A DNA stretch of 64,000 bases from Cladochytrium replicatum (Eukaryota > Chytridiomycota > Chytridiomycetes > Cladochytriales > Cladochytriaceae). Numbering within the stretch: the stretch's first letter is position 1; each line of letters opens with the position of its first letter. The notes beneath the pieces are model-generated. The model was not told where the DNA came from. It saw only the letters and a list, made by a program, of their open reading frames with translations, and made no database searches. This document shows, in pieces, positions 1,069-60,401 of the stretch. The translations under genes were made by a program, and so were the position numbers. The stretch covers positions 162,153 to 226,152 of the forward strand of contig JAHLKD010000091.1 of NCBI GenBank assembly GCA_025526935.1, read 5' to 3'.

Positions 1069-1444
1069 ATTTAGCGATTTTGGATGTCACAATGTTCCCA
1101 GAGCGGATGTACGTTGCGGATCTGAAGCCAAACATGACGAACTTGTCTTTGCTGGGATTTGTCACGTACTTTGCATAATGTGCGGCAGCCCAGTTGAATT
1201 GGCACGTGTAGCTTCATATGTTCTTCAGAATCGACCGGATGAGTTGGTCAGAATTGGGATCAGATTAACCGACACTACATGTATATCAGATTCTAATGGT
1301 CCTCAGAGTTGTCGATATTCATCTTTTCTATGAAATAGATTCATGCGGTGTGACGCTGTGTGACGCTGTTGGGACACTTGCGGTTCAAAGCATTGAGATT
1401 GGGCAGCTTGTTTTCATGTACTAGCACTAACCCTAATCACTGGG

Positions 1445-2172
1445 TTGTTGATGAAACCCCCGGACCGACCCCTCCTATTATATTTCCACGGAGGAGCCCA
1501 CTCGTTCTGTTCATCGCTAACCTATGTTGAAACGTTGGGTCAGCTTGGTAGACTGGCTGGCATTCGCATAATTTCGCTTGAATATGGACTTGCTCCAGCG
1601 ACCAAGTTCCCAGGCAAGCTGAACGAGGCTCTTGCTGCATTCAGGTTCCTTCTGAAAAGCCGGAAGCCAGGGCAGGCTGTGTTCGTCATGGGCGACTCGG
1701 CTGGTGGAAATCTTGTCCTCGCACTTCTGCAAACAAGTTGACGATAGCGAGTGGAAACTGCTGGTAGGAGCCATCCTCATCGCTCCGTGGGTTGACCTGA
1801 GCCGCCCACCATGACAGCACAGAATACTCGTACGATTCTGTCGAACAGGAATAGATTACGCCTCATGTCGAGGACTTCGTTCCATAAGGAGTTTCTTTTG
1901 CCGACCGCTCATCTCGCCCGTATACGCCGACCTCAAAGGATTTTGCCCGTTGCTCGCATACTACGGTGGCCGTGAAGTGCTTGCAGGGGACATTGAGCGC
2001 CGCACATCGAACGTGCCAGCGAAAGCCCGCGAAACACCAGCTTTGGAAGTCCAAGTATTTCGCGACCCCGTGGCACCACACGTAGCCGTGATGTTGCCAC
2101 AGGTTCTCCCCAACACTTTCTGGCCCAGGTACAGCCGCCTTTTCATCATTTGTCAAACGCAAGGCAGTTTGA
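1445..2172 (+). pseudogene. Decayed tandem copy of the HSL-type esterase
   Basis: A first frame (1445-1741) carries the hallmark YFHGGAHS oxyanion-hole motif and the nucleophile elbow GDSAGGN. It stops at a TGA right after LALLQTS. Homology resumes one base out of frame at 1740 (LVGAILIAPWVDLSRP), stops again, reappears at about 1920 (ISPVYADL, YYGGREVLAGDIER), and a last shift near 2110 restores a tail ending at TGA 2170-2172 that parallels the first copy's end (FSSFVKRKAV versus IASFVDQKS). No intron-like GT..AG pairs explain these shifts, which fall only a few bases apart. At least three frame changes and two stops point to a pseudogene. Sequencing error is possible but would have to strike several times here. 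Confidence 0.75.
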
Positions 2173-2405
2173 TGTGCAACGCACCATGTGTACCGACTTG
2201 ATAACCGAGAATAAGTGATCCTCTGTGTTTCGATACAATGTCTACACTGCTTCCCTTAAGTCCTAGTGCTCCTTAGTACAACGATGCAAGCATGTCGCAG
2301 TTCGCAGTTCCCCCAACCTTCTTTTCTTAAAATGCAGAATTAGTCCCCTTTTTCCTTGTGTGTCTCAAGTGAAAAATTTCAGATGCGCCTTCCCCAGCTT
2401 TGTGA

Positions 2406-5114
2406 ATGTATTTTGGAGGATTAATGGGTGCTGTGGGTCGAAGCCGCTACGTACGGCAACCTTCGTTGCTGATGGCTGCCATGCTCGCTCTGTCGTCTGC
2501 GCGTGCGACTGAGTCAATGGGGCCAGTCCCCGGACTAGCAAACGCACTCATTACCGATAATCAACAACCCGTCACAACATGCACCCCCGCCAGCGAGGCA
2601 ATATCGATATGCAAGCCTTACGTTACCTGGTCGACCACTCCGGAAGATGCGATAGTAGGGCTGACACTAGGGAAATACAAAAGGGAACACAAGGACCTTG
2701 TTGCCAAGTACGACGCAGACTGCGACATCGCTTGGACAAGATACATGTGTACTTGGATGTACCCTGTTTGTACGACTCTTAATAATGGTGAGCTCTTGTT
2801 TTGCAGCTCGGTGTGAATTGATTGATGCTTCCAAACAGGATCAATAAACGTGGAGTCTACTGTGTGTCCGTCACTAATGAATGATACATACAACCGATGC
2901 TACAGAACATTCACCAGTTTTCACGACAAGCACCTCGAGGAATTCCTTCAATTAACAATCCCCTTGAACACCAGCGTATCGAACTGCCATGGCGATATTG
3001 CGAACCCACTCAAAACAATTTCGCAAACCTTCACTTGCTTTGACCCTCTCAAGACCAAGCTTCCAAATCACACAGACGAAACTTCGCTAACAAGCTGCTT
3101 AGCGGAGTCTGGGTGCTGTCTGAGGTATCAATGAACGGTCATTTGCTCATTCATCATTGATCGTGCTCACTTTCAGCTGCCCTCCGGCTTATTACTTCTA
3201 CCCGAATGGCTACGCTGCCATTTTTGTGGCGGTTACTGGAGCTTTCAAGCTGATATCCCTCCTTTTGGTGTTAGCAACTGCCATCACCTACATTGTTCTC
3301 CCGACCAAGCGATCGCACCCACGAAAAGTTGTGCTGTTCATAAGTATTTCGATGGCTCTTTGGATTCTGCCAGCATCCATTGGGTTCATGTCACCATCCA
3401 AGGTTTTCTGCAAAGATGAGATTACTTTGGCTAGTCAGAGCAATAACTGGCTGTGTGGAATTACGGGTGCCTTCTTTATATTTGGTATGCTGAGTACTGC
3501 GACGTGGTCGACTTTTATGTTGGTCAACATTCATGTGGTATGCCATTTCAGCTTCAATGTTAAATCATCTAATGTTCTTCAAAACGTAACAGCAAGCGGT
3601 GTGGCAGTCTTCTATACTGGGACATTACTATTTGGTTCACCACGTCATATGTTGGGGAGTTCCGCTCCTCCTCACAATCTCTACGGTGTTCACTGGCTCA
3701 ATCAGATATGACTTCGGCCCAGTCTGCTTTGCTTCCGAAGAAACGGCTACGTTCATCATCTTCATCCCAATTTTCTTAATCGTGCTCCCCGGGATGCTTT
3801 TACATATCTACACAACGATCTGGTTGACCAGTCGAGTTCGCGAACAGAGAGCCAATCCAGATATACATCGCCAGTCGATGCCCTCCACCCGCAATTTCTC
3901 AAGCGTGCAACTCGCACGGGTCGAGAGCGGTGTCAGTATCTCAGCACTTGCACCACCAACTCCACCACAGCATCCTGTCTTAGGGAATCCTGTGTCGTCG
4001 TCACCAACGCCGCCAAACTTCTTAATGATCAGAAACATATCTGATACAAACGTGGCGGCAAGCCCGTTCGGTCCCACCGTCCCCCAGGAGCAAGTCAATA
4101 CACCGATTGGAACACCGTACAGCCAGAGCCACCTGACCACAACAACCATGTCTACCGGCTCAAGTGGCGGGCCACGGCGAGCAGCTGGACGCCGAGTGAG
4201 TCGTGGGGATGTCACAGCAGCTGTTGGAAATATTGCTGTGCCAGCAACGCCCCCACTTGCGCCAACGTATCCTCCACCGCAACCGGGGCCAACAACGCCA
4301 ACGAGGGCAAAGAGGTCGCCGTCAACTTTGGCACATGAGAGGTCGACCACTCCAATTCTTCCTCCCCCCACGCCTGCACAAACACCAGCACCACCACGAC
4401 CGAGGCCGCTGATCATTGGAGCGAGAACCGTTCAATGGCGAACGTGGGGCTTGTTTCTGTCTTATGTACTATGCCCCGTTCTCGTACTGGTAAGTAAATT
4501 TTGTTCACATCACAAAGTCGGGGCTGAAAATTCTTGTTCAGTTCTTCTTCGAGTACAACATCAAGGGAGTAAGCTCATTGGTGGATTACAAAAATCCCTT
4601 CGACAGTGACGTAATGCACGACTATCTTCTCTGCATGGCGAAGGATGGGCAGGATGCATGTGCCATCGACTTCATTCGAGGGGGTCGGATCCCCCACCTG
4701 TGGGTGACCGTCGTCATCGACTTTATAATATCTATATCGGGGATCTACCCATTCTTCGCGTTCACCTTCCGCAGTGAGGTCGGGAAAGAGTGGAAGGATG
4801 TTCTGCAGCGAAAGGGGGTTTGGAAGAAGGATGAAAGGATGGGTTCAGCTGGGGAGAGATGGAAGAATAGGTTTGGATGGTTCAGGTCGCTCAAACGGAT
4901 GGCTGGGAACGCGACGCGGAAAAAGAAGGACCCTCCAAAAGCGGATTCAGAGACGGAGGCGGAGATGGTCGTGGGGCCGGCTTTGACACCAAATCCTGCC
5001 GACACTACTTTGCCGCCTGTACCGCGTTCGTCCATTTCTCCGGCGCAACAGCAGGAAATGAGAGCTTATTTGGAGGAAATGAGATGGGGCAGGAATATGA
5101 GCGATAGAAAGTGA
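2406..5114 (+). CDS. Frizzled/Smoothened-like seven-transmembrane receptor
   Basis: Five exons (2406-2787, 2839-3124, 3177-3537, 3593-4489, 4542-5114) splice to 832 residues without a break. Residues 1-35 resemble a signal peptide (LLMAAMLALSSARA). A cysteine-rich ectodomain follows (about 50-235), with at least ten Cys including TCTP, CTWMYPVC and CLAESGCC, arranged like a Frizzled CRD. Then come seven hydrophobic segments of the Frizzled membrane region: VTGAFKLISLLLVLATAITYIV, a loop with C, WSTFMLVNIHVQAVW, HHVICWGVPLLLTI, FIIFIPIFLIVLPGMLL, WGLFLSYVLCPVLVL and VTVVIDFIISISGIYPFFAF. Loop 3 is very long (about 190 residues, Pro/Thr rich). The tail lacks the KTxxxW Dishevelled-binding motif of animal Frizzleds. 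Wnt ligands are not known in fungi, so ligand and coupling are unknown. The 2406 ATG is the first in frame; 2424 is an alternative start. Confidence 0.85.
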
Positions 5115-5439
5115 GTTTTTCTTTGATGATTGGTGTCACCTGAGCTGTTGTTCTTTTGTTCGTTTGGTTCTTGACATTTCTTTGATCTAGCAAAGGAAAC
5201 GCCTTTTCTGTTTGTTAGTTTTTTTGTGTTTCTTGGATGCGTTTTGTTTGCATGTTAGCTAATCTTCCGCACATTTGTGCTCTGACACTTCACTCGCAGC
5301 GTCCCTTTTTTTTAAGTTTTTTTCGTCGATTGTTCTCTTACATACCCAATTGTATCACTAGTGTTCATTTGGTTTAGTGCTCTTTTTCTTATTACAAATA
5401 GGAAATCAGTTTAATCCCACGAATCTGCATGAATTTTGA

Positions 5440-5455
5440 GTCACTTTAAAGTGAC
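5440..5455. promoter_or_regulatory. Perfect 16-bp palindrome upstream of PEX11
   Basis: GTCACTTTAAAGTGAC is a perfect palindrome about 145 bp before the PEX11 start. The GTCAC/GTGAC half-site recurs at about 5465 and 5492. This could be a dimeric transcription-factor site; that is inference from symmetry and position only. The rest of 5115-5600 is T-rich 3' flank of the receptor gene with no gene seen. Confidence 0.35.
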
Positions 5456-5600
5456 CCTTTCTGGGTCACACCGTCCATATCAGGACAATGTGTCACATCA
5501 CCCACAAAACGACCAGTTGAAAACCCCCGCCTGCCCGGCTATTTGACCCATCAGAACTTTTCAACAGGATCGTAACCAAGAATTAAACGCTCAACACAAG

Positions 5601-6668
5601 ATGGTGGCTGCCAGCAACGGATCTCGTCCACAAGCGGACGCTGTCGCTCTCCCCTCAAAGCCTGTCCCCGCGATGACATCCAGCGACGAAGAGCTCCACG
5701 CGCACCACGGCCCAATAGTTGGCCGCGTTCTAGCAATGCACCATGCCTTGATCCTGACAGATGGCCGCGACAAGATGTTCAAGGTATTTCTCAGTCATAA
5801 CGACCACTATGCGTCTAATCTCACCATTCTCTTTATTGATGGATCACATAGCTTACACAATTTTCCGCACGAATGATTTTGTGGTCTGCCGCAACCCTTC
5901 GGCCACAACTGCAGCAATTCCTTGAATCCTATGGAAAGGATGTCGAGGTTCCAGATCTACCTGTTCCGCTCCAGAAACGACTGAACTCGATCGTCGCGGC
6001 CATGTCGCTTACACGGAAAGTCATCCGCACTTTCCACTGGCTCGAGCCCATCGAGAAGATGGTCGAGGTCGATCCAGCCGTTTACCCAGACGACCGTGTC
6101 CGACACAACATGCTGGTGATCAACCACATTGTTGGGTAAACCTCAACATTATTTGATTTTCTTTTCTCACATGCCTCAATTCAGCACTGCGTGTAACGTC
6201 GCAGACGACATCAACTGCCTCGCCAAGATCGGCGTCCTCAGCTCAAAGACCGGAAAGCTCTGGGGTCCGCGCGCTTCCCAGCTTTGGTTCACCTGCATCT
6301 GGCTCGACCTCTACGAAAACACAATGTCGTTCTTGGACGTCTACACACTCAAGAAAACCGCGCTCCGACGCAATCTCCGAAAGGCAGAGTCGCCCGTCCC
6401 GCTCCACAAGCGCCAGCCGACGACAATGTCGGTGCTCCTGCCATCGAAAAGCAGCACGGGCACCGTCCAGCAGCTCGACACACGTCTACGAGCCATCTAC
6501 ACGATCTATTTCAAGCTGTTGATGGATCTGATTTACTGCTCGTACGACGTGTTCCACCTCGAAGGGAAGGGGTGGGATCAGGGGTGGCAGGTGTGGACGG
6601 GATTGATTTCGGCATGGATCGGTGCACATAAGCTCTATGGAAAGCTTCGTGACCGCATGTTTAACTGA
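5601..6668 (+). CDS. PEX11: Peroxisomal membrane protein PEX11 family
   Basis: Three exons (5601-5783, 5852-6135, 6185-6668) give 316 residues. PEX11 proteins sit in the peroxisomal membrane and drive its elongation before fission. The first helix region reads MFKLTQFSARMILW, matching the KLIQYSSR..W start of the family. It is followed by a segment with LTRKVIRTFHWLEP (the RK.LRLGK.l-like helix), then NVADDINCLAKIGVL and LWGPRASQLWFTCIWLDLYEN, the conserved C-terminal half. A second C-terminal helix near residues 270-310 (YTIYFKLLMDLIYCSYDVF) completes the usual architecture. The length suits a PEX11C/fungal-type member. The start is the first ATG and lies close after a long T-rich intergenic stretch. 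The gene is convergent with PCF11. Confidence 0.9.
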
Positions 6669-6941
6669 GGGCCTCATGTGTTATATATCCCTTGTTTTCC
6701 TCGTATACGTATAGCAATAATATACCATGTTGGATTGATTGAGTTTGAAAGGAAGTATATTTGAAAATCACCACTGGTACTCCTTCACAATTGAAACGTT
6801 GCTGACATTTTTTCTCTCGGAAGTTGTAATTCACTCATCAAACAAGGATCGAGCATGGAAGAAACGCAAGCAAAAAGTTTCGTGAAACCGGCAACAAAAC
6901 GCTGCACGCCATTTTACCATTTTTTGAGATACCAACATCTT

Positions 6942-9884
6942 TTAAAATGAAGCCAAATGAATCAAAATCGTCGGTCTGAATAGTGCAATCAACTGCCTCT
7001 TCGCATCCCTATACCCATCACCCCCATTCCCGCTACTTGAACTTCCATCCGCCAGAGGCACGATCCCGCTACTCCCCAGACTTCCACTCGCACGCGGCAC
7101 CATAATCGCCGACGAAACGGCTTCCAGAGTCGCCGGAGAGAGCAACGGAAGGCCTTGCGACGACAAATTTTTCGTGTAGGGGCCGCTTGTCGTTATGGGC
7201 AGCATTGAAGGGGCATCTTCCCTCCTAGTGTCTCCATCCGGATCGGGTTTCACAAATCCAAAGGGCCTCGCATCCGAACCGAAAGGTGACGCACCTCGTT
7301 GAGATGACAGATTAGCAACGTCATCTTCTCCATCACGTTTCCGCTTGCCAGCGTTCGAACCAGAAATGGGCGGAGTTGACGTCGCAGAAGTTGGGGGCTT
7401 CAGACCTGGGGGCGACGTAATCGCTACACCGTCCGGGAGCGACTGGTGATCGCGGTGACAAGTGCAGTGAAACAGCTTAACGATTTTAAAATGTCAGAGA
7501 ATGAATTTTCAAAAAAAGGAGGGGGAAGGTGAGGTTGTTTCGGGATATTGGTAGAAGAGTAGGTTAATTCAGTAAAGCCCGTTTAGATTTTTTTGTTTTG
7601 TTTGTTTTAAAGTTATGACGATAGTTTGGCGAGGGCAAAAACAATATCCAAATTGACCGTGTCGGTTGCAAGTGAGCGACGAGCACGGAGTATGGAGAAG
7701 AAGCAGTCTCAGTCAATATACCACAGAAATACAAAGACCCCCGCCCAGATTTACCTTATTGTTTACTCTGACAGCATTGCGGAACATCCACTCTTCCTGA
7801 TCTTCATCGAAAAACGTCTTGAGCGTCTCATTGCAGATACCGCAAGTCGCATTTTGTAACCCATCCGTGGGAACATCGTGTGATTTCTCTTCAACTGGCT
7901 TTTCGGTGACCTTCTCTTTGTTTTCGAAGAAGGAGGTTGGGGCTGTTCAATCATAGTTAAGTACAATCAACTAACAAGGGAACCCGTTCTTACTTACCAT
8001 GAGAGCTCTTGACAAGAAAGTCAGTCTCAAGTTCCGTAACCCACGCCTCCCCGGCAAGGTACCACTCCCTCGACATCGCCCTCTTGTCCTTCTCCTTAAT
8101 CCTCTTGTTTTGCCTAAAATGCCAATCCAAGTGCTCCGAATTTCGTTCTTTGCCAGTATCTGTGCGGGCGTATCGTGAACCACATTGTGCGCACTGAATC
8201 TCGAGACTCTCGTACAAAAATGCCACCAATCCAGTCACCTTTTGGTTCACACCTTGGTTTGTGAGCAAAATGCGTGGGAACGAGGAGGAAGGAACGGTAG
8301 GCATCCGCGGAGCAACTATTGGGTTCGGAGGCGTGGTGGTTACGGTACCAGAAAGGAGGCCAAGGCCGATCAAACTGTCGAGGGATACCGGCGCATTGGT
8401 CCCGTATACTTGCGAAATGGGGGGGAGAATGCCGAACGCTCCTGCAGAGAAGGCGGGTTGGACCAGCGGGTTAACCAGTGGTGGAATCGAGACTGCTGCG
8501 GCAAACGGATTAGCGAGCGGTGGGATGGATAAAGGAACAGATAGGGGCGTTTCAGGTGTTGGGATCGGCAGAACAGGTGCATTTGGTGGTGAGATTTGCA
8601 GCAACTTCTCCTTGATCCGCTCGACTGTCAGAGCATCCAACGCAGTACTCTGGACTACTTTGAGAAGCTTCCCCGACGATAAACAACGTAAATGAATGGA
8701 ATACTTGGTTTGTGATTCCGCTTACCTGAGAACAAATTACTACTTGTTCGTTATCGACACGACTGAGAGGGTTAAGTGCAGCCATTTGCTGTTTCTGAAG
8801 TAGGAGCATCTGGATTTGCTGCTCAATCGCAATTGTCGCGGCGTTCATGACCGGCACGACTGGAGGTAATGGACGGGTAACAACCAGTTCTGTTCCTATG
8901 TGCGGCCGAGGAGCTTCACGGTAATGGCTTTGATAGTCCGTCTGTGATTAGAAACTCTTAATACCTGTTTTGTGGTTTTGGGCATATGTAAATTAAAAGC
9001 TTACTCGAGCTTGACTCCTTTCCGCGGGGTAATTACGGTCGTGCTGGGATGAAAAGGGCTCTTTGTGCTCTCTGAAAAAGATCGATGTGTCATTAGCTTT
9101 GTGATATCGCAGAAATTGTATTCTTACACACATTGATGATTGTGGATATTGTCCATTTCGTCTTGGCTGTTGTGACAACGTCGTGAGAATTTATGACTAA
9201 GAACATAGCAAAACCATACCACAAAGATTGGATTGACATGGATATGCTGTCCTACGGCTCCTCGTCCCAGGGAAAGTTGCTTTACCGCAGAGTCCAGCTG
9301 ATGCAGAAGCGTAGGTGGGAAGAGCGGTCCGCCCGGGTGGTTCCACCAAGTCATGAGCACTTTCTGCAAACGTTGTTTTTCCTCATTCTCCATAGCGTCA
9401 AATGCGACCAGGTATGTTCGGATTAAATTTTGCGAGAACTGCTTAGTGTAAACAGCGCCCAAGTTTTTGCAAATAGAATCGAGCAGGTAGAATACCGGAA
9501 GTTTCTGTTTCGGCGGAGCCTAAATTTGGAGATGGGAAAGTTGTAAGTTTAAACTGAACCAAAAAATTATTGGATAACACAGAAGACGAGGGAAGCCCGA
9601 ATAAGGTTGTCCCAAACCCATGTACAAAATTGAAGGACAAAGGGGTAATGTTGGTTGAGTTCTCATTCCAAATTACAAAGATACAGAAATCAACTCAACC
9701 AGATTGTCCATACATTTCGAATTTGATCTTCTATCACTTGAACAATGACCGAAGCGGCATGAGAGTTTTCTTGAGCAATGATGGTGAGATTTGTGATAAT
9801 GGACCTGCAGTTGAACGTTAGATCTCCAACAGACGCTCGATACTCTTGTCGAAGGGTCTCGAGCTCAGCATCCGTTGGCGCCAT
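6942..9884 (-). CDS. PCF11: PCF11, CTD-binding subunit of pre-mRNA cleavage factor
   Basis: Read on the minus strand from ATG 9884. The N-terminus is a CTD-interaction domain: LRQEYRASVGDLTFNCRSII, then after an intron KQKLPVFYLLDSICKNLGAVY, then a helix with TWWNHPGGPLFPP. This domain binds the phosphorylated tail of RNA polymerase II. A Gln-rich stretch (QQIQMLLLQKQQMAAL) and a Pro-rich linker follow. The first zinc-binding element reads CAQCGSRYARTD..HLDWHFRQN and continues with AMSREWYLAGEAW. The second is split over introns: CGICNETLKTFFDEDQEEWMF, then LFHCTCHRDH. The tail after it is low-complexity and ends at the TAA at 6942. Introns are short, and the exon boundaries at the two zinc sites splice in frame. 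PCF11 acts in 3'-end cleavage and transcription termination in the nucleus. Exact exon edges were not all computed. Confidence 0.9.
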
Positions 9885-10383
9885 TCTGGTATTATTCGCA
9901 CCAGCGTCGGTTGGACAATAGCACTTGGTGAGAAGGTCCGGCAGGGAGAGTTTGTCTGGCGTGAAAGCGGATTAGTAACCGCACCCAAACACATTTCCAG
10001 CACATACCTGAGGGAAAATATAGGGTGGCGAAGAGGAGAGGGATGTGAGCAAACTACAGAGACACGGGATGTCTTTGATATTGGCGGTAAAACAGCGCCA
10101 AATCTACTATCGTTTTGCGAGCTAGTTTCGCAACTGAAACCGACAGGAGACACACAGACAGCAATTTATTCCGAAAGGTTGGTACCACCTCTCCAGACAC
10201 AATAACTATGAACGCCAGCAAGTAACAACAAGTAAAGAGGGGGAAGGGTTGGTTTCGAGAGGTGACCGAGACACAGCCTCTCGAGGGACTTCTTATGATT
10301 TAGCGTGAGAAAGTAATATTGAGAATAAACGAGCGTGTTTGTTTTTTGGAATGTGAGCGTCGCAACATTAAGTGTATACACAT
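9885..10383. other. Intergenic between PCF11 start and RPL9 stop
   Basis: About 500 bp containing the PCF11 5' flank and the RPL9 3' flank. Open frames in both directions (for example 9846-10205 plus) have no recognisable domain and overlap the PCF11 start, so I treat them as chance. Confidence 0.5.
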
Positions 10384-11121
10384 TTACTCCTTGACAACAG
10401 TGCTGCGGTCAGAAACGTAGATACCCTGAAGAAAGAAAACGTCGTCAGGTGGAACTATAAACCCGCACACCGGAATGAAAGTCTTACATCCAAGAACTTT
10501 CGGATATCCTTGTTCTTGACAGCGCACGATTGCTGGATCGAGGCGGCTAATTAAATAGTCAATTTCTGAAACAGCAGATTCAACGCCCGGTACGACATAC
10601 CCGACTGCGAGACGTTCTGGATGTCGTTGCCGATAAGAATAATCTCATCTTTCTGTCCAGTGGAGTGGGTGACCTTGACACCATCGAGCATTTTTACCCT
10701 TCGGATGACCTTCTCACCCAAGAAATTCCTGACTTCGACAAGGGTGTCGCCCTCGCTGATGTTGACGTTGATGGGAAAGTGGGCGTAAACAAAGCGCATC
10801 TTGTACTCGAAGCCCTAACAAAAATAATTAATAAATCACGTAAAATTCTACACTATAATGGCCGCACACCTTGGTGACACCAGTGATCATGTTCTCAATG
10901 TGGGAGCAGATGGTACGGATGCAAGCAATGTGCTTGCGGGTGCCCTGCCAGACCTTCACACGGACGGTGTCGGGTGCAACACGAACCATCTCGAGGTTGA
11001 CGTGGGTGAAGCTCTTCTTCAAGGTACCACGGGGACCCTTCACGCGAACCGTGCGGGCCCTGAAGTCCAAGGACACACCTTCGGGGATTTTGACGTCGCG
11101 GTCTTGAACAATCGGCCTCAT
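10384..11121 (-). CDS. RPL9: 60S ribosomal protein L9 (uL6)
   Basis: Four exons on the minus strand (11121-10870, 10814-10601, 10546-10488, 10425-10384) splice to 188 residues, the normal length for eukaryotic uL6. The start [19 protein letters not shown] and the repeated uL6 fold strands ([31 protein letters not shown]) are clear. So are [11 protein letters not shown] and the C-terminal [14 protein letters not shown]. The protein belongs to the large ribosomal subunit near the factor-binding region. The third intron is only 54 nt and hides in an open frame: unspliced reading runs on to a false end. Splicing at CAGTCGG/GTATGT and AATTAG/CCGCC restores [15 protein letters not shown]. High gene conservation makes the annotation secure. 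Confidence 0.97.
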
Positions 11122-11672
11122 GGTCGTCTAGTGTGTGGGCGAAGTTGTCTATGTATGCAGAAAACGGCGAGTGAGATATGGAAATCGATTCTCATGCCAC
11201 AGTCCCTTCAGTGTTTCGAAACCTGTTTTCCCTCCAACGATAGTCCAACATAGAATTCAAAATAGCCACACCCTTTTCCGACGCAAGCTCTTCCATGGGT
11301 GGCGAGCACCCATCCATCCAACATCCATCCATCCGAATCCATGCCATCCGCACCATCATCCGTTATTCTACTTGTTTCAGATACTTCCAGATTCCCCTGC
11401 AGTCCATCCTCGTGTTGCCTCGGCCGTATTCTCCACTCACCGGCGAGTTTCCCTCAAATCCAAACAGTGTGGCTGTGCACTTCCACCAACCAATGGCACG
11501 TGTTCTAGATCCGTGGGAAATTTTTTGAACACAATAGTGAGTGGGAAGTGCAAAATAATTTTTACAGGCTATTGGTGGCCATGGATTTTTCTCGGAAAAA
11601 TAAGCAACGCAGTTGGTGTTGATGAAATTCACTTTAAGTTTGCCATTGTATTGGGCTGAAATTCTGACAGTG
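11122..11672. other. Intergenic, CATC-rich; no gene seen
   Basis: Upstream region of RPL9 and downstream flank of the Nudix gene. A short CATC microsatellite-like run lies near 11303-11345 (CATCCATCCAACATCCATCC). Plus-strand frames here are low-complexity shadows of the acidic Nudix tail or of this repeat. Confidence 0.5.
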
Positions 11673-12959
11673 TCAATCATTATCACCATCATCGCCATTT
11701 CCGTCAATTGCTGCATATCTGTAATCCCTTTCTTCGTCCTCTTCTTCGTCTTCAACTCCTCGGTCGTCCTCCTCTTCATTTTCTTCGTTTCTTTCTTTCC
11801 CTCCATTCCTACCCCCCTTTATTTGCCGCTGCGACATTCCAGAGCTTCTCTTGTCACGGTTGTTTCTATTTGCCCCCTCCGCGTACACCGAAAACCCGAC
11901 CCCAAATCCTGCCCCCGGCGCTCCAGTGCCCGGTACAAATACCACATCATCCCGCTCCATGCCGAGCACATTCAGTGGCCAAATTGCTCCGCCTTTAGCG
12001 ACATAAGGAAACCAGATCAATGGCTCGCGTCCTCGCAAAGGAAGATGCTCCCCGAAATGTTCAAGTGCAACCCAGCATGCACCGGCTGAATGCACGTCCG
12101 GAACGTGCTTTGGTGGCGAAGGGATCGTGATCATGAATGCTGGGAGTTGTGGAACTGCTTGGAAGAGGGCTTCGGCGGATCGTGTTGGCGATGGATTCGA
12201 TTCAGGTGCAGGCTGCAAATTTGGTGTTTGAGTATTCAGAAGCTGCTGCTTGAGTGACGTGGATGTACATTACCTCCGCATAGAATATAACACGGATCCT
12301 AAACCCGTATTCGGACGGTGTGTATTCCATTCGAAGGATTCCTTTGATTAGAACCACCACACCGGCCTCTTCGAGCGTCTCGCGCTCCGCTGCGCTGACA
12401 AGATCCTCCCCAACTTCTACACCTCCCCCTGGGAGCCACCAGCCCTGATGAAAACATAGATTGTTTATAAAACTATCGTAGATGTTTGCCGAGTGCAAAA
12501 TACCTGAGATGACACCTCGTCAACCATCAAGAACCTTCCATCCGAAGGTCGTCGACACACCACCAACGCAAACACAGGTTGACGATGGTTCACTGGCTTT
12601 CTTCTCAGTACGCCCGCACTTCCTCCCTCTGTTCCATCTCCATGTGCTTTGTCAAGATGCTTCGGGAGCCCCGCGACACTCTCCTTGCACACTGAGCAGA
12701 CAGTTCCACCTGGTTCTTGTGTATGGTACAGAGGCACATGTACTCTAAGCTTTGATATCGTAAATTCCAGGCCGCAGTATGGACAGCTGTACTCAGCGTC
12801 ACCATCTACTCCCGGTGTGTGTTTTGAAATCCTGGATCCGGGTCTCCCGCCTCGCGTAGGGGACGATGAAGACTTTGTGTCAAATATGGATCGGGTGGCT
12901 CGTTGAGCGTGGATGGATGTGAGGATACTATACAGTGCTGGGAAGTAATCCGTCACCAT
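11673..12959 (-). CDS. Nudix hydrolase with N-terminal C2H2-type zinc finger
   Basis: Three exons (12959-12504, 12444-12274, 12212-11673) give 388 residues from ATG 12959. Residues about 40-90 hold two CxxC..H elements: CPYCGLEFTISKLRVHVPLYH and CSVCKESVAGLPKHLDKAH. A Nudix domain follows, with a complete box GGGVEVGE..RETLEEAGV (G-x5-E-x7-REUxEExGU) formed exactly across the first intron. The tail is basic, then strongly acidic (EENEEEDD, EDEEEDEER). Nudix enzymes hydrolyse nucleoside diphosphates linked to another moiety; the substrate here cannot be read from sequence. Zinc fingers suggest nucleic-acid or protein binding. An upstream frame (13008-13412) may be an additional first exon: see that entry. 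Confidence 0.8.
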
Positions 12960-13007
12960 GTTGACTCCTTTCCTGATAGAAGGAGTTGAGCCATGAAAGC
13001 AATGCAA

Positions 13008-13412
13008 TCAGTTGTCTGTTGTTTTGAACCTTGACCAGTAACTTCTTTCTCTCGCATCAACGCTTGCCCGACTACTCCACAACACAACAAACGCTCGCTT
13101 TCCTATCGGTGCGCCCAATGCCCTCAGCCGTCCAATGACCTCTTTCACTTGCTTCCTCGCCCCATCCTCGCCACCTTCATGCTCCACGACCAGCACTGCT
13201 GGGCTGACGCTCAGGAGCAACGTCAAGACGTCCTCTGCAGTGGTTAGGACATGGAAACCAAATGTGCGTGCGGGAAGGACCGATGGTAGAACTGCACTTG
13301 GAGGGATAACCTTGGATTGTGATCCGAGAACACGACGGGGGGCTGCGGTTAAGGCGTCCATGGAGTCAGCTGTGAAAATCACAAGATGCGGAAGGGTGGT
13401 AGGTGTGGTCAT
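13008..13412 (-). CDS. Short unrecognised frame, possibly the true first exon of the Nudix gene
   Basis: From ATG 13412 the frame encodes about 134 residues ending FKTTDN with TGA at 13008-13010. The composition looks like a small alpha/beta domain with alternating hydrophobic strands (PHLVIFTADSMDAL, FGFHVLTTAEDVLTLLL, PAVLVVEHEGG, RAFVVLWSSR). This loosely resembles a degenerate receiver-like fold; no catalytic pattern is certain. It stands in the same frame as the Nudix exon, separated by this one stop. A 63-nt intron from ACTG/GTCAAG to TATCAG/GAAAGG would remove the stop and join SYW to KGVNMVTDY in frame. The donor GTCAAG is unusual, so the fusion is only a possibility. Alternatively it is a separate small gene. 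Confidence 0.45.
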   Translation of the reverse strand: MTTPTTLPHLVIFTADSMDALTAAPRRVLGSQSKVIPPSAVLPSVLPARTFGFHVLTTAEDVLTLLLSVSPAVLVVEHEGGEDGARKQVKEVIGRLRALGAPIGKRAFVVLWSSRASVDARERSYWSRFKTTDN

Positions 13413-13554
13413 GGAGATGATTCGGTTTGTTTGAGATCGTGAATGGTTGGGGTCGCATATCAACAACCAATCACTACACAATTTAACTTCTAAATTTCAA
13501 AAAAATTAATTTGCATTTCAGGAACACAAATTCCAGTACAAGGAAACAAAGTTT

Positions 13555-15483
13555 CTAAGTTAATTTCGATGGTCTGTAATCCAAATAGTTCTCGCTTTCT
13601 GCAGCTTCGTATTCGTTGATCAGATCTTGCACCACTTCCCTGTTGAAGTCAAAATGAATCAATAAACCTCATTCTTTAGTGTACTTTTAGTACCTGGAAA
13701 TATCAAACTCCTCCAAACCGTCCGCGAAAATCGTCTCCCTCTTATACTGCTCCAGGAAAGCATTCCGCTTCCTGAGACGGTCGAATTGGTCACAAGTCCG
13801 TTTGAACATCTATTTTAACGAAATGTTAAAAACAAATCTACGGACTGTTTTCCCGAACGTTACCGTAGAAATACTTGTGTGATTTGCAAGCATGAGTCCC
13901 GAAACTTTGTGGCCAGCCTGGATGTACGGACTCTTCTTCGAAAGTGCTACTTGAATACTCGCGGGACCCCACGGAATGAATTGTGCGAGTCTCCTTTCAC
14001 GTATTCTCATGAGTGACTTGTGAACCTACTCAAAAGGTTGGTGATCGCCTGCAAACTCCTTAATCTTCTTCGTACCTCAGTGGGATCCACATCGCCCTGA
14101 ATGATATTGAGGATGGAGATATAGCAACTGTTCTTCGACACTGTCGTTGAGACCAACTTATTCTTCGCCTGCAACAAACGCCTCATCACATCGAGGACAG
14201 TTGTTTTGCGGACGCCTTTTGCCTGATCATTGGTTTAGTGTCTCTTCTTTTGAGGCACGAACTAAACTATCAAAGCTGTCTTACTGATTCAACTTGATCG
14301 CTGCTATATGGTGTATAACTAGTCGTTAGATAGTGGCACCGAGGAGTTGGGATCAAAGATGCAACCAGTCCCACAAGATCGTTGTTCATGTAGCCGGGGT
14401 ATCGAAGTGTAGTTGTGCTGGCACTCATGACTGTCGAAACCTGTTTGAATATATAACAGGATGATCGAGTTCCAATCGCATTTAAAAGTTCCAATCCCAT
14501 AAAGTACCAATTGATTTGTCTGAGCGAAAGTTGGGTTAGAGATGTGAAGCCTGTCGGCAGCTATCCGATTTAGCGCGGCGTTATCAAGTACCACCTAGAA
14601 TATTTATGTTAAATTCTGGAGTGCACATCGAAGCATTCGATCCATCTTACCACTGAGTCGGCGCATGTTGTGAGACGCTTCAGTGTAAGCATAGAGTTAT
14701 ACGGCTGCACAACAACATCACTGGTTTCTTCGCTGTTTGGAAACACCGAGTACGTCTGAATAAGCTTCTTTGGATACCGATCGTTCAGTGTCTCGAGCAA
14801 GTAAGATCCCAATCCAGAGCCCGTTCCGCCAGCAATAGAGTGCAAAAGCATGAATCCCTAAGAACCGCGAAACCTTACGTCGGACGCAGAATGGAGCTTC
14901 TTCAAAACCCACCTCCAAACTATCACTGCCGTCTGCTTCTCTGTCAATCATTTCAATTATCTCTTCATGGACTTTCTCTCCTTGGGAATATCCATATGCC
15001 CAGTTGTTTCCAGCACCACCTCCGTCCTGAGACATGAACACATTTTCTGGATTGAACAAGTTTGCGTAAGGCGAGGCCATGATGTTGTTTATGACCTGCA
15101 ATTAAAACAGATTTTTAGGTAATTCTCGAAAAGCAATCTTAATAGCTCGCTTACTCTTGGTTCCAGATCCAGCAGGATCGATCGAGGTATGTAGTGTTCA
15201 TCATCCGCCTATTACAAACGTGGTTCACGATGTTGTCGTCCCAATTGACACACTAGAACATACTTGATAGAAGAAAACATCTTTTCTGTCTCCGGTCTCG
15301 GTTGCAAAGTCTTCCAAAATGCCATCTGGTCGGATCCCGTGTTCGGCACACAACTGTTGCCAAAACACTTGTCCAACTGACAGTACAATGTTCGCACAGT
15401 TAGAATTTGTAGATAAATCGCAGCTCCGACTCACTCTGGTTCCCGCACTGGCCAACTTGCAAAGTGATGAGCTCGCGTGGCAT
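13555..15483 (-). CDS. TUBG: Gamma-tubulin
   Basis: Minus strand, about ten small exons. It starts [16 protein letters not shown] at ATG 15483, followed by [25 protein letters not shown], and [17 protein letters not shown]. Next comes [21 protein letters not shown], then the GTP-binding loop [19 protein letters not shown], and [21 protein letters not shown]. The C-terminal domain has [18 protein letters not shown], then a helix with [20 protein letters not shown], and ends LDYRPSKLT. The asparagine and loop texts are gamma-specific rather than alpha or beta (for example GNNWAYGY and [14 protein letters not shown]). Gamma-tubulin nucleates microtubules at the spindle pole or centriole/basal body. 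It diverges from a decayed WD-repeat gene 130 bp upstream. Confidence 0.95.
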
Positions 15484-15612
15484 TTCGCAGACCAGAAGCT
15501 GTCCAAATTTGGGGGTGGGGCTTGTCGGTTGTTGGTGACCTCAGCGCACACGAGGAGGGCAAAATCAGCAATCAGCACACCGATGTGCAACTGGACGCTG
15601 CAGTCACCAGCA

Positions 15613-16240
15613 TGAGCATTAGCCCTTGGGGCAGGGACGAAGTTGCATTGGCCGCGACAGCATTTTTACCCCAGTGCTGGCCGAACTTCCTGACTTTCTC
15701 AAATTTATAGCAAGATGGGTCTTTGGATCATCGATTTGGAGAGAACCCATTTGATCGACCTCGAGTTATGCAGCACGTAACAAAGTGGGAAGTCAGCGAT
15801 GTGCAGTGGAATACACACAAGTCTTGCATCTACAGACACAATCTCGATCAAAAACTCTGCCGGGACTTGAAAGGATACGAAAAAATTTTCTAGTCGAATC
15901 AAAGTACTCTGAAATATCACACCAAGTGGGGCGGTGGTGAGGCAGAGAGTCCAACGACTTCGCTCGGCCGTTCTTCGAGCGTCGACGTTGATTACGCCAA
16001 GAGCTTTTCATATCATCAGATGGTTCAGAGTGACGCTCGGAAGATGCTCTCGGGAACGTGAGCTCGAAGAACGTTGCCTTCATCTTGAACATCACAAGAC
16101 AGCTCTGTCTGATCTGAGCTGGAGTCCCATTGATTCATACCTGTTGGCAACATGCTCGAATGACACCATCGTGTGCATATGGGATATGCGGACGCTCCCC
16201 AATTAAATGGGTTACGTCCTTTCAAACTGGACAGGTAGGC
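15613..16240 (+). pseudogene. Decayed WDR59/Mtc5-like WD40 gene (GATOR2/SEA complex type), truncated
   Basis: Fragments occur in order along the first two WD repeats of the WDR59/Mtc5 family: [15 protein letters not shown], then GLWIIDLERTHLIDL, then MQHVTKWEVSDVQWN, and last ALSDLSWSPIDSYLLATCSND with TIVCIWDMRT. Matching residues in the family are the SISPSGRD..LA, GL.IIDL, WEVADVQW and ATCA.DS..HCWD segments. One internal intron (ending TTTATAG at about 15712) still splices in frame, but a base change in frame occurs near 15770, stops lie at about 15892 and 16058, and another shift occurs near 16200. Homology ends at about 16240, where mobile-element debris begins. I read it as a 5' remnant of a TORC1-signalling gene. 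An intact copy may exist elsewhere. Confidence 0.65.
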
Positions 16241-16367
16241 ATATAAACTTTTGTTGAAAGATAAACTCTGAATTATATCCGATATAATCATTGAAGCTGT
16301 CAAGCTTTATCATACAACACGTCAAAAGAAGAAAGTGTCTCACCGGCTCAGATGGCATCGCAGAGGT

Positions 16368-55979: not shown

Positions 55980-58206
55980 ATGATGAACTCCACGAAGTGT
56001 GCTGTATCAACGACCCTGGCTGCCATCGCGGTGCTGTACCTGCTGCTGGTTGGACTGCCCTACTTCAGGAAGGATACATCTCGCTCGTATTCTGGAGTTG
56101 ATCCCGAAGCGATTGCCCAATACCAAGATGATTACGGTCAAATGGTGGTATCTTCCGCAGACCTGCCGTGGCCTCACCATGGCCCAACTTTCAACGTAAA
56201 GATCGACATTGGTCCAGAGAGGTCTTCGAGAGTGAAAGTCGAAAAGCTCGACGGCCGCGTGCTCCTTCTTATCTCCAAGGATGGATCGAAAGAGCCACGA
56301 TTCCAAATCGGCACGATGACTAAAGGTGCCGACGGGAACATCAACTATGCTGACTCGCAGCAAGTATTTGGCTTAGACGTCGAGGAGTTTCCCGTCGGAC
56401 GAGTCGTCTCGTTCCACCCTGGCAACAGGCGTGTTCATGGGTTTCCTGTGAAGACTCTCTTCGACATACCAGATGGAGAATACTATGTCCAGGTTCGTAT
56501 GAGTATTGAGTGTTTCGGTGAACCATGTTCACAGCGCAGTTTTAAGGTGGTCGTGAACGTATTTGATACATTCGTCCGGTCCGATGGAGTAACTGTAAAG
56601 CTGCACGCTGATCACGGGGAAGGTCAAAACTGGCGCTTCGCACCAGGAAACCTTCTGTCTGATGTGGTCAAGGTCAGAGTCCACCATGGAAGGCCATCTG
56701 TGCCACTTCTAGTCGTGAACAAGTAAGTCTAAGTGCTATTCCAAGCGCTGCGCTTTGTTAAGCTGCTGCCTCAGACGAATCCCTACAATTGAGAAGACAT
56801 ACGAAGACACCAATTACGTCAAACACATCAAGATCCGCAGTGAACTTGTCAGGTATCCCTTAGTTCCTTCCAGGAAAAGTCCCGTGTTTCTGAATTACAT
56901 CCAGCAAGTTCTATGGACGTGACATGTACCTTGGCGCTTCCGTCCTGCTTCCAGAAGGCTTCCACGAGCCCGAAAACGCCAACACGCACTACCCGCTTGT
57001 TCTATACCATGGCCACTTTACTCCCACGTTCCTGATCCCCGCCGCATTCCGTGAAACGCCTCCCGATGAAACGGCAGAGGACTACGCTTACACAGAACAA
57101 CTTTACAGCTACTACCTATACAAAAACTGGACGTCTCGAAGCCCAGACAGCCCCTTCTACAATAACCGAGTTATCGTCATGACTGTCCAGCACGCAAACC
57201 CATGGTACGATGACAGCTACGCGACAAACTCGTTAAACGTCGGGCCGTACGGGGATGCGATTACTTACGAGCTTGTCCCGTATGTTGAGTCTAGTTTCAG
57301 GGGAATCGGCAAGTCATGGGCTCGTGTCATGTTTGGTGGTTCGACTGGAGGATGGGGTTAGTATCAACAGTGCAAATTCATTATGTTTTATTCGTTATTA
57401 AAATCGTCTGCTCTGTCGTTTTGTAGAGTCTCTTGCAGTCCAGGTAACCTTGTTAACTCACCAACTTGCATAGTCGTGCCATCACACTCACTTTGCCTCC
57501 TCAGATCTTCTATCCGGATGAGTACAACGGATGCTGGGCGTCTTGCCCCGATCCAGTCGACTTCCGCCGATACACAAACATTGATATCTACAACCAAGAC
57601 AACGCGTACTACTACAAAAGCTCCTGGCGCAAGACTCCCATCCCCGCCGAGCGAAACGCGTATGGCGACCTTTTCGCGACCCAGGAAGAAGCAAACTGGC
57701 TTGAACTCGCAACGGGCGGGCACAAATCTCGATCCGGCGAGCAATACGACATCTGGCAAGCAGTGTACTCCCCGGTCGGAAGCAACGGCTACCCGGAACC
57801 AATCTGGAACAAAGAGACCGGCGAGATTAATCGCACGGTGGCCGAATATTGGCGCGAACACTGGGACCTTTCGAATATTATTGTGAGGGACTGGAAGAAG
57901 CTGAGCAAGTCGCTCAGGGGCAAGATTAGAGTCTACGTTGGTACGGCGGATTCGTTCTATCTTGAGGGTGCGGTGCGGTTGTTCGACGAGGCGGTGAGCA
58001 AGCTTGAGCCGGCGTGGAATGGAAAGATTGTTTATGGCGCGTTCCCGGGCTCCGGATTGGGCCACGAGCACTGTTGGTCGGGAAGCCCGAATGATCCGGT
58101 TACCATTTCGAGGCTTACGAATTTGCCACGCTTGATCGGGGAAATGACTGACCAGATGGTGTCGAATTCTCCGGATGGTGCAGATGTCTCGAGCTGGCGT
58201 TACTGA
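55980..58206 (+). CDS. Membrane-anchored putative esterase (alpha/beta-hydrolase fold)
   Basis: Five exons (55980-56722, 56775-56852, 56905-57356, 57427-57443, 57505-58206) give 663 residues. An N-terminal hydrophobic helix (STTLAAIAVLYLLLVGLPY) acts as signal or anchor. Residues 30-270 look like a beta-rich accessory region. The catalytic half has YPLVLYHGHFTPTF, RVIVMTVQHANPWYDD, and the nucleophile elbow FGGSTGGWESL, with Ser in G-x-S-x-G form. This is followed by FYPDEYNGCWASCPDPVDF, then KIRVYVGTADSFYL (acid residue region) and GLGHEHCW (likely catalytic His). It resembles large bacterial-type putative esterases; the substrate cannot be told. Exon 4 is a 17-nt microexon coding the residues directly after the nucleophile. 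The reading frame is intact throughout. Confidence 0.8.
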
Positions 58207-58385
58207 CTTTGTTCAACACGTGCACCTTGTGCTTGTGCAGTTCTCCAGCCCTTAACAATTTCAATGCGGCCGTTAAATTTGAACAGTGGCGATTGTTCTT
58301 ATGTTTGTATTCCTTAAAAGCTGTCACAAACGGACGACTTGATCTGAAAACACCAAAACACATACCAAAAACTTCTCAAAGGGAC

Positions 58386-59200
58386 TCAAGAATCTACATA
58401 AGCGTTGGAGTTTCGTGCCTGTTCGATCCTTGCGTCCCGCGTCTGCATCCACAACTCACTCACAATCTCAGGCACCTGATCCTCCGCACTCGTGTTCATC
58501 CAGTTCAAGTACGTACACCTTGCCAGATCCGCCACCTCCTCCTCCTCATACTGCATCTTTGCAAATGTAAACTTTGACGGGTTGAAATCTGGCATCTCCG
58601 GGTTCGCAATCAGCGGAAAATACACGATCGCCATGTCTTTCTACGGCAGCAGCTCTCCCCGGGGTCAGATCATCGGTTGTGCGCTGTGGGCGGTGCCTGC
58701 TCGCGATGGATATAGGGATGGAGGTTGTGGTTGCGCGGGTGTGGAATGGGGGTGGAAGTGGAGGTCTGAAAGTTACTTGAGGAAGGCGACCTAGATCTCT
58801 GTGCGGATGGAGAATCTGGTCGCGGTGCGTTCAACAGGCAGACAAAGAGATCCTTTTGCTGCGATGTATAGATTTGCGAGCATCCAGCATGATCTTGAGA
58901 CCCCGAAAGGTATGTTACGTTATTGTATAACCTAGTCTCCTCCATTGCTTTTAGATATCCTGCTGCTCCAATCATAGCCTGGAGGAAAGGCGGTTGATGA
59001 TTTTTGTCACTGCAAGATTTTCCCGCCCACCTTGAATCCACCACCACCTCCTGTTACCGCTATTTACTGGAATATCCAGCGGATCAACGTCTTCAGGTTT
59101 CTCTCCGATGAACTTTGCAAAAGACTCTCGCCTGTTTGAGATACGGTTCTGGACAATTTCTGGGATGAAACCTTCTTGTCCCTACAACGGCATGTGTTCT
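58386..59200 (-). pseudogene. Decayed cytosolic phospholipase A2-like gene with internal deletion
   Basis: Minus-strand fragments follow the cPLA2/lysophospholipase catalytic domain: EGFIPEIVQNRISNRRESFA, EKPEDVDPLDIPV, AMIGAAGYLKAMEETRLYNN, then VTYLSG. The catalytic text then continues one base out of frame as VSRSCWMLANLY, where the family has GVSGSCW. A stop follows at about 58790. From 58634 the C-terminal end appears: IVYFPLIANPEMPDFNPSKF, with TFAKMQYEEEEVADLARCTY. The several hundred residues that should lie between are missing, as is the region before the glycine-rich loop. Frameshift, stop and deletion together mark a pseudogene. The protein would have released fatty acids from phospholipids. 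Confidence 0.7.
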
Positions 59201-60401
59201 ATGTGTTCTCTGTGCCCAGATTTAACAGATTTAACACAGCTGTAAAAGATCGGAAGGTTCCTAAAACAATCACAGAGATATCCTCCAGAACGTCACATCA
59301 ATACCCGGTCGGACACACGGTGTTGTCTTTAAACCAGCTTTGAAGATGCTGGATGTGTCCGCCATGCCTAGCAAGGTTTTTGCATTTTCTTCGGCATGTT
59401 CTGCGCTATTACTGAGCCGGGATCCCTTTCGACGAATTTTTGCATATTTTACAAATTGGGACAATTTCTGTAACAAGAAGGTTACAAATACAGAAACACA
59501 CGGCGTACGATCGTTTGCTTCCGTTTCGATATACTTCAGCAACTCAGCACGCTGCTTTGAATGTCCCAGGCCATAAAGTGAGAGCGTAAAGTGAGAGCGT
59601 AAAGGAGCCTCTGGCGCTTGTATTCATTTTGCCGCGCTTTCCCATCAGCTAAGAAGGCATTTTGACTCTTCACATGCAAGTGGCAAATGGAAGCAACAGT
59701 CCGTCCACGATTGACAGTCAAGAGAATCCCCGGTGAAATCGGAGTTTCGTGGTTCAAGTAGTGAATCTCCGTCATCTTGATGTGTACTCCCATCGACGTC
59801 AAACGAATACCATAGATACTCACAATATTTTGCCACAAACCCATCACCTCATATTTCTCAACAACTTGACCATTGCGTGACAATTTGAAGCATGTCACTA
59901 ATATATTGGTGTAATGTGGCAATGTTTGAGTTGTTTTATATACATTATTTGCACATTGGCAATCCCATGGCGCATTTGTTCTTTGCACATTGACTTGTTG
60001 GGAGATCTACTTGGCTTTCCTGACATCTGCATTGGATACAGATAGAGATCACCAGGTCAACCCCTCACCTCCTAAGCCAGTAGTGCCATTTTGGTGCATG
60101 GGAACTTTTGATCGCAACAAGCATCCAATTACTGGATCATCCATTCCATTGTGTCTTACAATATATATCATGAGTTGGGACTATCTGCTCCATGACGTGT
60201 GTGTCACGAGTCACTAGAGGGCATAGGAGGTGCCAATACTGCCACTGCTCTATGCGTATGGTGGTCCTGAATTGCGGATTGCTGTCAGGTTTGTGCTAGT
60301 GCAGCACTCTAGACCCCTTCTCTTACTTGGTATAGATGTAATCCGTCCAATGTGTTTTGCCATTTGCATCTGCCCTCTTCTTCAGCCATCATTTATGCAA
60401 T
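59201..60401. other. Repeat-region flank with an unassigned frame
   Basis: The minus-strand frame 59536-59988 (about 150 residues; YEVMGLWQNIVSIYG, ILLTVNRGRTVASIC) looks coding-like, but I cannot assign a family and it has no obvious exon partners. A short 13-bp direct repeat (GTGAGAGCGTAAA) lies near 59578-59604. Nothing else is supported here. Confidence 0.35.

Follow-up and report, generated by a model that had tools for sequence, protein, structure and literature searches.

Frizzled receptors are a hallmark of animal development, yet homologues with an Fz domain are also described from fungi and amoebozoans in a 2025 eLife study, which detected none in 23 choanoflagellates (PMC12716839). 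This raises the question of what such a receptor is, and what it may do, when it turns up in a fungal genome. We analyzed a 64,000-nucleotide stretch (the window) of Cladochytrium replicatum, a chytrid of the order Cladochytriales; the window lies on contig C91 of the assembly searched (50.5 Mb, 198 contigs). On its + strand, positions 2406-5114 hold a gene of five exons and four introns (51-55 bp each, all GT..AG); the joined exons encode, in one uninterrupted frame, a protein of exactly 832 residues. An earlier note, made from the letters alone, had described an intact Frizzled-like receptor with a signal peptide, a Cys-rich ectodomain, and a seven-helix membrane region in an apparently fungal genome. 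The same exon boundaries were recovered by spliced alignment, and the protein is 100% identical over its full length to an NCBI "hypothetical protein" of the same species (P0001, BJ742DRAFT_834609). By inspection, its N-terminus is signal-peptide-like, as the note had said, with arginines followed by the hydrophobic stretch LLMAAMLALS and an AXA-type SARA site. The receptor is thus real, intact, and correctly recognized, though publicly annotated as hypothetical.

Class assignment of the seven-helix domain

That the protein belongs to class F, the Frizzled/Smoothened type, and falls into fungal class XVII is well shown. Its best Pfam family is Frizzled (PF01534), at 45.3 bits against a cut-off of 22.3, with the match spanning residues 242-428. 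Hydropathy reveals seven hydrophobic stretches, to which helices in the predicted structure correspond, transmembrane helix (TM) 7 being split in two. The parts of the receptor discussed below are as follows.

2574-3041, + strand: diverged Frizzled-type cysteine-rich domain (CRD), residues 57-195, with the intron 2788-2838 inside; 8 of 10 canonical cysteines, the seventh replaced by M141
3193-3841, + strand: TM1-TM5, residues 229-426, with the intron 3538-3592 inside
3842-4408, + strand: third intracellular loop, 189 residues (427-615), Pro/Ser/Thr-rich and predicted to be disordered, with 12 Ser/Thr-Pro (S/T-P) sites
4409-4799, + strand: TM6-TM7, residues 616-728, with the intron 4490-4541 inside; R626 is aligned to the TM6 arginine of FZD3
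4776-4793, + strand: EVGKEW, in the place of animal KTxxxW, residues 721-726; E725-W726 are invariant in a 10-protein fungal alignment

The earlier note had named two outcomes that would overturn its reading, the lack of a significant PF01534 hit and a better match to another seven-helix class; neither was observed. A receptor of another class, of the adhesion/secretin or slime-mould cAMP-receptor type, could have reached PF01534 by chance similarity; 7tm_2 is also over its cut-off in the window protein (31.8 bits), and eight PF01534 places in the genome also exceed the Dicty_CAR cut-off. However, Frizzled is ahead of 7tm_2 by 13.5 bits and of Dicty_CAR (PF05462, which at 14.2 bits is below its cut-off of 21) by 31.1 bits, and the CRD, the CCxxCP linker, and the fold all indicate class F. 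This explanation is largely refuted, and we regard it as very improbable.

Among solved structures, FZD3 and FZD6 come closest in sequence and SMO/FZD in fold. A single-sequence search of PDB returned 15 rows up to E 10, comprising 11 Frizzled chains, GPR97, and three gp120 chains. When the linker and seven-transmembrane (7TM) region of the predicted structure, a check that the note had proposed, were compared by fold, the class F 7TM fold was found, and Smoothened or Frizzled made up the first 29 of 50 matches listed. Several points temper the weight of the fold. Class F is separated from other receptors by a narrow margin in score (23.7 vs 23.2 for TSHR, a tie), and three further class F rows rank lower in the list (22.9, 22.4, and 21.8). 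The model was built on 10 sequences and has a mean predicted local distance difference test score of 55.6 and a predicted TM-score of 0.49, with TM6 modelled weakly (confidence 40-65). Absence from the fold-match lists excludes no family outside class F.

Smoothened chains give the highest fold matches of the linker and 7TM region, and we also considered a Smoothened-like sensor, which would lack a protein ligand and instead respond to a membrane sterol or lipid by way of its CRD or helical bundle. No SMO chain was found by sequence, however, either with the single query (15 rows, E<=10) or with a six-sequence profile (32 rows, E<=1), and the fold Z differences of 1-2 are small. We consider such a sensor unlikely, although it deserves to be kept in mind.

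That such receptors had already been reported from early fungi, as the earlier note stated, agrees with the literature. Two Frizzled receptors of Spizellomyces punctatus were described by Krishnan et al. (2012; PMC3251606). Liu et al. (2025) counted 187 fungal Frizzled homologues, as class 17, with nearly none in Ascomycota or Basidiomycota; Cladochytrium is not mentioned in the main text of that paper (PMC12842992). Of six papers that do mention Cladochytrium replicatum, none has GPCRs as the subject of its title. A 2026 review lists class XVII without a ligand or functional test (PMC13308352). With these reports in print since 2012, the window receptor is therefore less of a surprise. It is a new member of a recognized but functionally blank class, a small surprise to specialists and useful for working out what the class does. 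It resembles other fungal class XVII receptors in its 7TM region over the PF01534 cut-off, seven helices, Frizzled-type ectodomain, and chytrid host, but differs in a CRD without the seventh cysteine and one of the ninth and tenth, in its long third loop, and in not being named Frizzled in the public record.

The cysteine-rich ectodomain

The window receptor is not alone. We found at least seven CRD-bearing class F genes in the genome, namely those on C91 (the window gene), C83, C9, C5 at 576 kb, C8, C5 at 395 kb, and C97, which form three duplicate pairs and one single gene. All seven were modelled from the CRD through TM7, and the window gene, C83, and C97 (public model P0003) were followed from start to stop. 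Each carries CC[LM]xC directly before TM1, and CCxxC is invariant in the ten-protein fungal alignment. In the following, the C83 gene is called the twin of the window gene and the gene on contig C9 the C9 paralogue.

Thirteen cysteines lie ahead of TM1 in the window ectodomain, with the spacing C59, C69, C106-X8-C115-X6-C122, C137-X3-M141-X6-C148, and C177. The published CRD pattern is CnCnCX8CX6CnCX3CX6,7CnCnC, with bridges joining cysteines C1-C5, C2-C4, C3-C8, C6-C10, and C7-C9 in order of occurrence (PMC6938638). Eight of these ten are present in the window gene; the seventh is a methionine (M141) and either the ninth or the tenth is missing. The simplest reading would be that the bridge between the seventh and ninth cysteines was lost as a unit. 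When the C9 paralogue was added to the CRD profile, the ROR2 CRD was matched in PDB at 8.8e-6; the remaining 13 of 14 rows, listed to E 10, were Frizzled chains at 0.086-0.93, individually non-significant. The same profile aligned with other fungal CRDs over 106 columns in hhalign (E 2.1e-4, at a probability of just 46%). The window CRD scored 14.1 bits when compared with a profile built from five other fungal CRDs, and none of 1000 full shuffles reached that value.

Other results pull the opposite way. In the Pfam Fz search that the note had proposed, the window CRD alone stays below the cut-off of PF01392 (14.2 bits vs 32.1). Combined with its twin, it matched no Frizzled chain in PDB, and the three rows returned were all gp120 (best E 0.026); with hhalign, this pair aligned with the five other fungal CRDs over 22 columns at a probability of 1.8%. 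Six of 1000 shuffles that kept the cysteines fixed scored at least as high as the window CRD against the family profile, and the domain is modelled at low confidence (30-68 per ten-residue block). The gp120 rows were dismissed as chance matches. On balance, the ectodomain is a diverged Frizzled-type CRD, recognizable only with the help of the C9 paralogue, because of the matches of the C9-aided profile, the cysteine spacing, and the shuffle test. The Cys-rich ectodomain of the earlier note therefore stands as Frizzled-type in this aided sense, as a diverged form rather than a canonical one.

Both core cysteine patterns occur in seven of the 14 proteins checked (C9, C5a, C8, C5b, P0003, P0004, and P0005), and all ten cysteines could be read from positions in these seven. 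In the window gene and its twin, the first core pattern is accompanied by the second in a methionine form. The first pattern alone is present in P0007 and the second alone in P0006, P0008, P0009, and P0010, with P0006 and P0008 looking incomplete there. The CRD of P0003, although over the Pfam cut-off, retrieved no PDB chain below E 0.019 when searched alone. As a separate observation, the CRDs of P0009 (Mortierella sp. AM989) and P0010 (Entomortierella beljakovae) are without the first and fifth cysteines, the partners of one bridge, apparently a second case of a CRD bridge lost as a unit.

Signaling motifs, the third loop, and a possible mechanism

Animal Frizzled receptors, of which FZD3 and FZD6 are nearest by sequence, share with the window receptor the CRD, the linker, the 7TM fold, and a TM6 arginine. 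The window receptor differs from them in its eight of ten CRD cysteines, its 189-residue third loop, and the absence of two motifs. After TM7 it has EVGKEW instead of KTxxxW, with the W kept, and SHPRKVVLF stands where FZD3 has RYPERPIIF in the profile alignment, so that YPERPI with its Y2x39 is replaced by HPRKVV. This bears on whether an animal-type Wnt-Frizzled-Dishevelled pathway might operate in the fungus. The CRD, linker, and 7TM architecture, as well as the conserved W, would fit such a pathway. However, both motifs are altered, and in FZD5, Y2x39 and W8x54 of YPERPI and KTxxxW matter for Dishevelled (PMC10387068). Neither a Wnt nor a DIX match was found in the genome, in searches whose positive controls were silent and which thus do not show absence. 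We think it highly improbable that the animal pathway is present.

A basic residue is retained in TM6, where R626 shares an alignment column with the arginine of FZD3. Two points weaken what can be made of it: the FZD3 arginine is only presumably position 6x32, and the residue corresponding to W7x55, with which R6x32 pairs, could not be placed in the window protein. Contact between a basic 6x32 and W7x55 is described as a switch that acts in opposite ways on the binding of G protein and of Dishevelled (PMC10387068). G-alpha genes are plentiful, with 31 places in the genome that group into roughly nine gene loci.

We compared the window gene with its twin, which has the same five exons and an open frame, over 821 aligned codons by the Nei-Gojobori method, and obtained a nonsynonymous rate (dN) of 0.097 and a synonymous rate (dS) of 0.728, a ratio of 0.133. 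The regional ratios were as follows.

CRD: dN/dS 0.124 (95% range 0.064-0.212)
TM1-5: dN/dS 0.067 (95% range 0.032-0.118)
Third loop: dN/dS 0.067 (95% range 0.036-0.109)
TM6-7: dN/dS 0.204 (95% range 0.104-0.389)
Tail: dN/dS 0.180 (95% range 0.091-0.329)
Linker: dN/dS 0.269 (33 codons)
N-terminus: dN/dS 0.549 (47 codons)

The protein sequence has been under long-standing purifying selection relative to the duplicate. The predicted-disordered third loop is as constrained as TM1-5, and the loop therefore does something, a conclusion that is tempered by its origin in a single gene pair. Ten of its 12 S/T-P sites are retained in the twin, and the loop of the C9 paralogue is likewise long, with APPTPP. 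We regard this slow-evolving loop as the most informative new observation. The ratios also bear on whether the window gene might be a decayed or non-functional duplicate left by a past large-scale duplication. It does lie within a block duplicated on contig C83, but the two copies share their five-exon structure and have open frames, and a dS of 0.73 at a ratio of 0.133 indicates long-standing selection at the protein level. Decay is barely credible.

We slightly favor a non-Wnt, G-protein-coupled class F receptor that uses its third loop as a docking platform. The CRD would bind a putative extracellular non-Wnt ligand, such as a lipid or glycoprotein of fungal, algal, or plant-surface origin. 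Heterotrimeric G proteins would be the target of the seven-helix domain, in which the basic residue at the TM6 switch position is kept. The third loop, long, conserved, and carrying S/T-P sites, would serve as a putative platform for phosphorylation and docking, in place of the Dishevelled interface, the motifs of which are missing. We infer a non-Wnt ligand, G-protein output, and loop scaffolding because the animal motifs are missing, R626 is present, and G-alpha genes are plentiful. Such a receptor might sense surfaces or neighbors for zoospores or young thalli, with the zoospore role and the identity of the ligand being guesses. A wider proposal, that fungal class F receptors in general signal free of Wnt and Dishevelled, their CRD binding a ligand other than Wnt, G proteins transducing the signal, and the conserved disordered third loop acting as scaffold, is possible but more doubtful. 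If true, Wnt-free fungal signaling would show the role of Frizzled before Wnt existed. The paralogues in this genome make a tidy set for receptor swaps and gene removals that address the ligand, the coupling, and the role of the third loop.

Dictyostelid Fsl/Fsc receptors, compared by description only, are likewise an expanded non-animal class F family, mostly without KTxxxW, but many of them lack a CRD (PMC10445921), in contrast to the seven Cladochytrium genes that have one.

Gene structure, duplication, and paralogue counts

The exons of the window gene divide the receptor as follows.

2406-2787, + strand: exon 1, residues 1-127 plus one base, covering the signal-peptide-like N-terminus and the beginning of the CRD
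2839-3124, + strand: exon 2, remaining CRD and part of the linker
3177-3537, + strand: exon 3, last part of the CCLSCP linker motif, then TM1-TM3
3593-4489, + strand: exon 4, TM4, TM5, the long third intracellular loop, and the start of TM6
4542-5114, + strand: exon 5, remainder of TM6, third extracellular loop, TM7, cytoplasmic tail, and stop codon

The neighbors of the gene are an alpha/beta hydrolase upstream and PEX11 and a CID-domain, Pcf11-like gene downstream. Contamination is disfavored because of these neighbors, the short introns, and the collinear duplicate, and the genome is fungal, as the note had supposed. The collinear block joins window positions 1437-16241 to C83:72349-86847, and an inverted block joins 57772-60022 to C83:90756-95595, where pieces longer than 100 bp are approximately 67-85% identical at the DNA level (C83:52-96 kb was compared). 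The three receptor pairs have similar dS (0.73, 0.69, and 0.62), which suggests one large event, such as a whole-genome duplication or hybridization. The intact C83 copy (L026:1303-3988) is absent from the protein database matches of the window protein; the public annotation may lack a gene model for it or give one of unusual size.

For the number of receptors in this genome, PF01534 alone can mislead. A genome search with it listed at least 11 places, at 10 loci; C83 and C9 are the only two of the CRD type, and the window gene is unlisted. Taking this as ten Frizzled loci was rejected, since open frames at the other eight also exceed the Dicty_CAR cut-off, with Dicty_CAR the better match at five and Frizzled at three. 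We take most of these eight, which are fragments rather than whole genes, to be probably cAMP-receptor-like; the L033 fragment fits several 7TM families about equally. PF01392 was found at five places up to E 1, two of them over the cut-off. Among fungal relatives, PF01534 was above its cut-off in only three of the nine scanned. Because of this and the Dicty_CAR overlap at eight of ten loci, Pfam PF01534 counts of fungal Frizzled receptors may be off both ways.

A tree built from 15 rows, all fungal, places the window gene together with C83 and C9 (98/96). It is unrooted, and no phylogenetic closeness to animals is claimed from it; the C9 join may be false, with long branches meeting there. 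Relatives were found in Phlyctochytrium, Chytridium, Gigaspora, Dentiscutata, Funneliformis, and Mortierella-type fungi, and the first two protein database searches listed at least two proteins each and a third, with a paralogue query, at least eight, figures that are not totals of fungal relatives. The low yield of the first two probably reflects a scoring step limited to the 7995 candidates with the most words in common. Six of the eight cAMP-receptor-like fragments form look-alike pairs by eye (L034/L036, L035/L037, and L038/L039), each pair lying on different contigs, in keeping with large-scale duplication.
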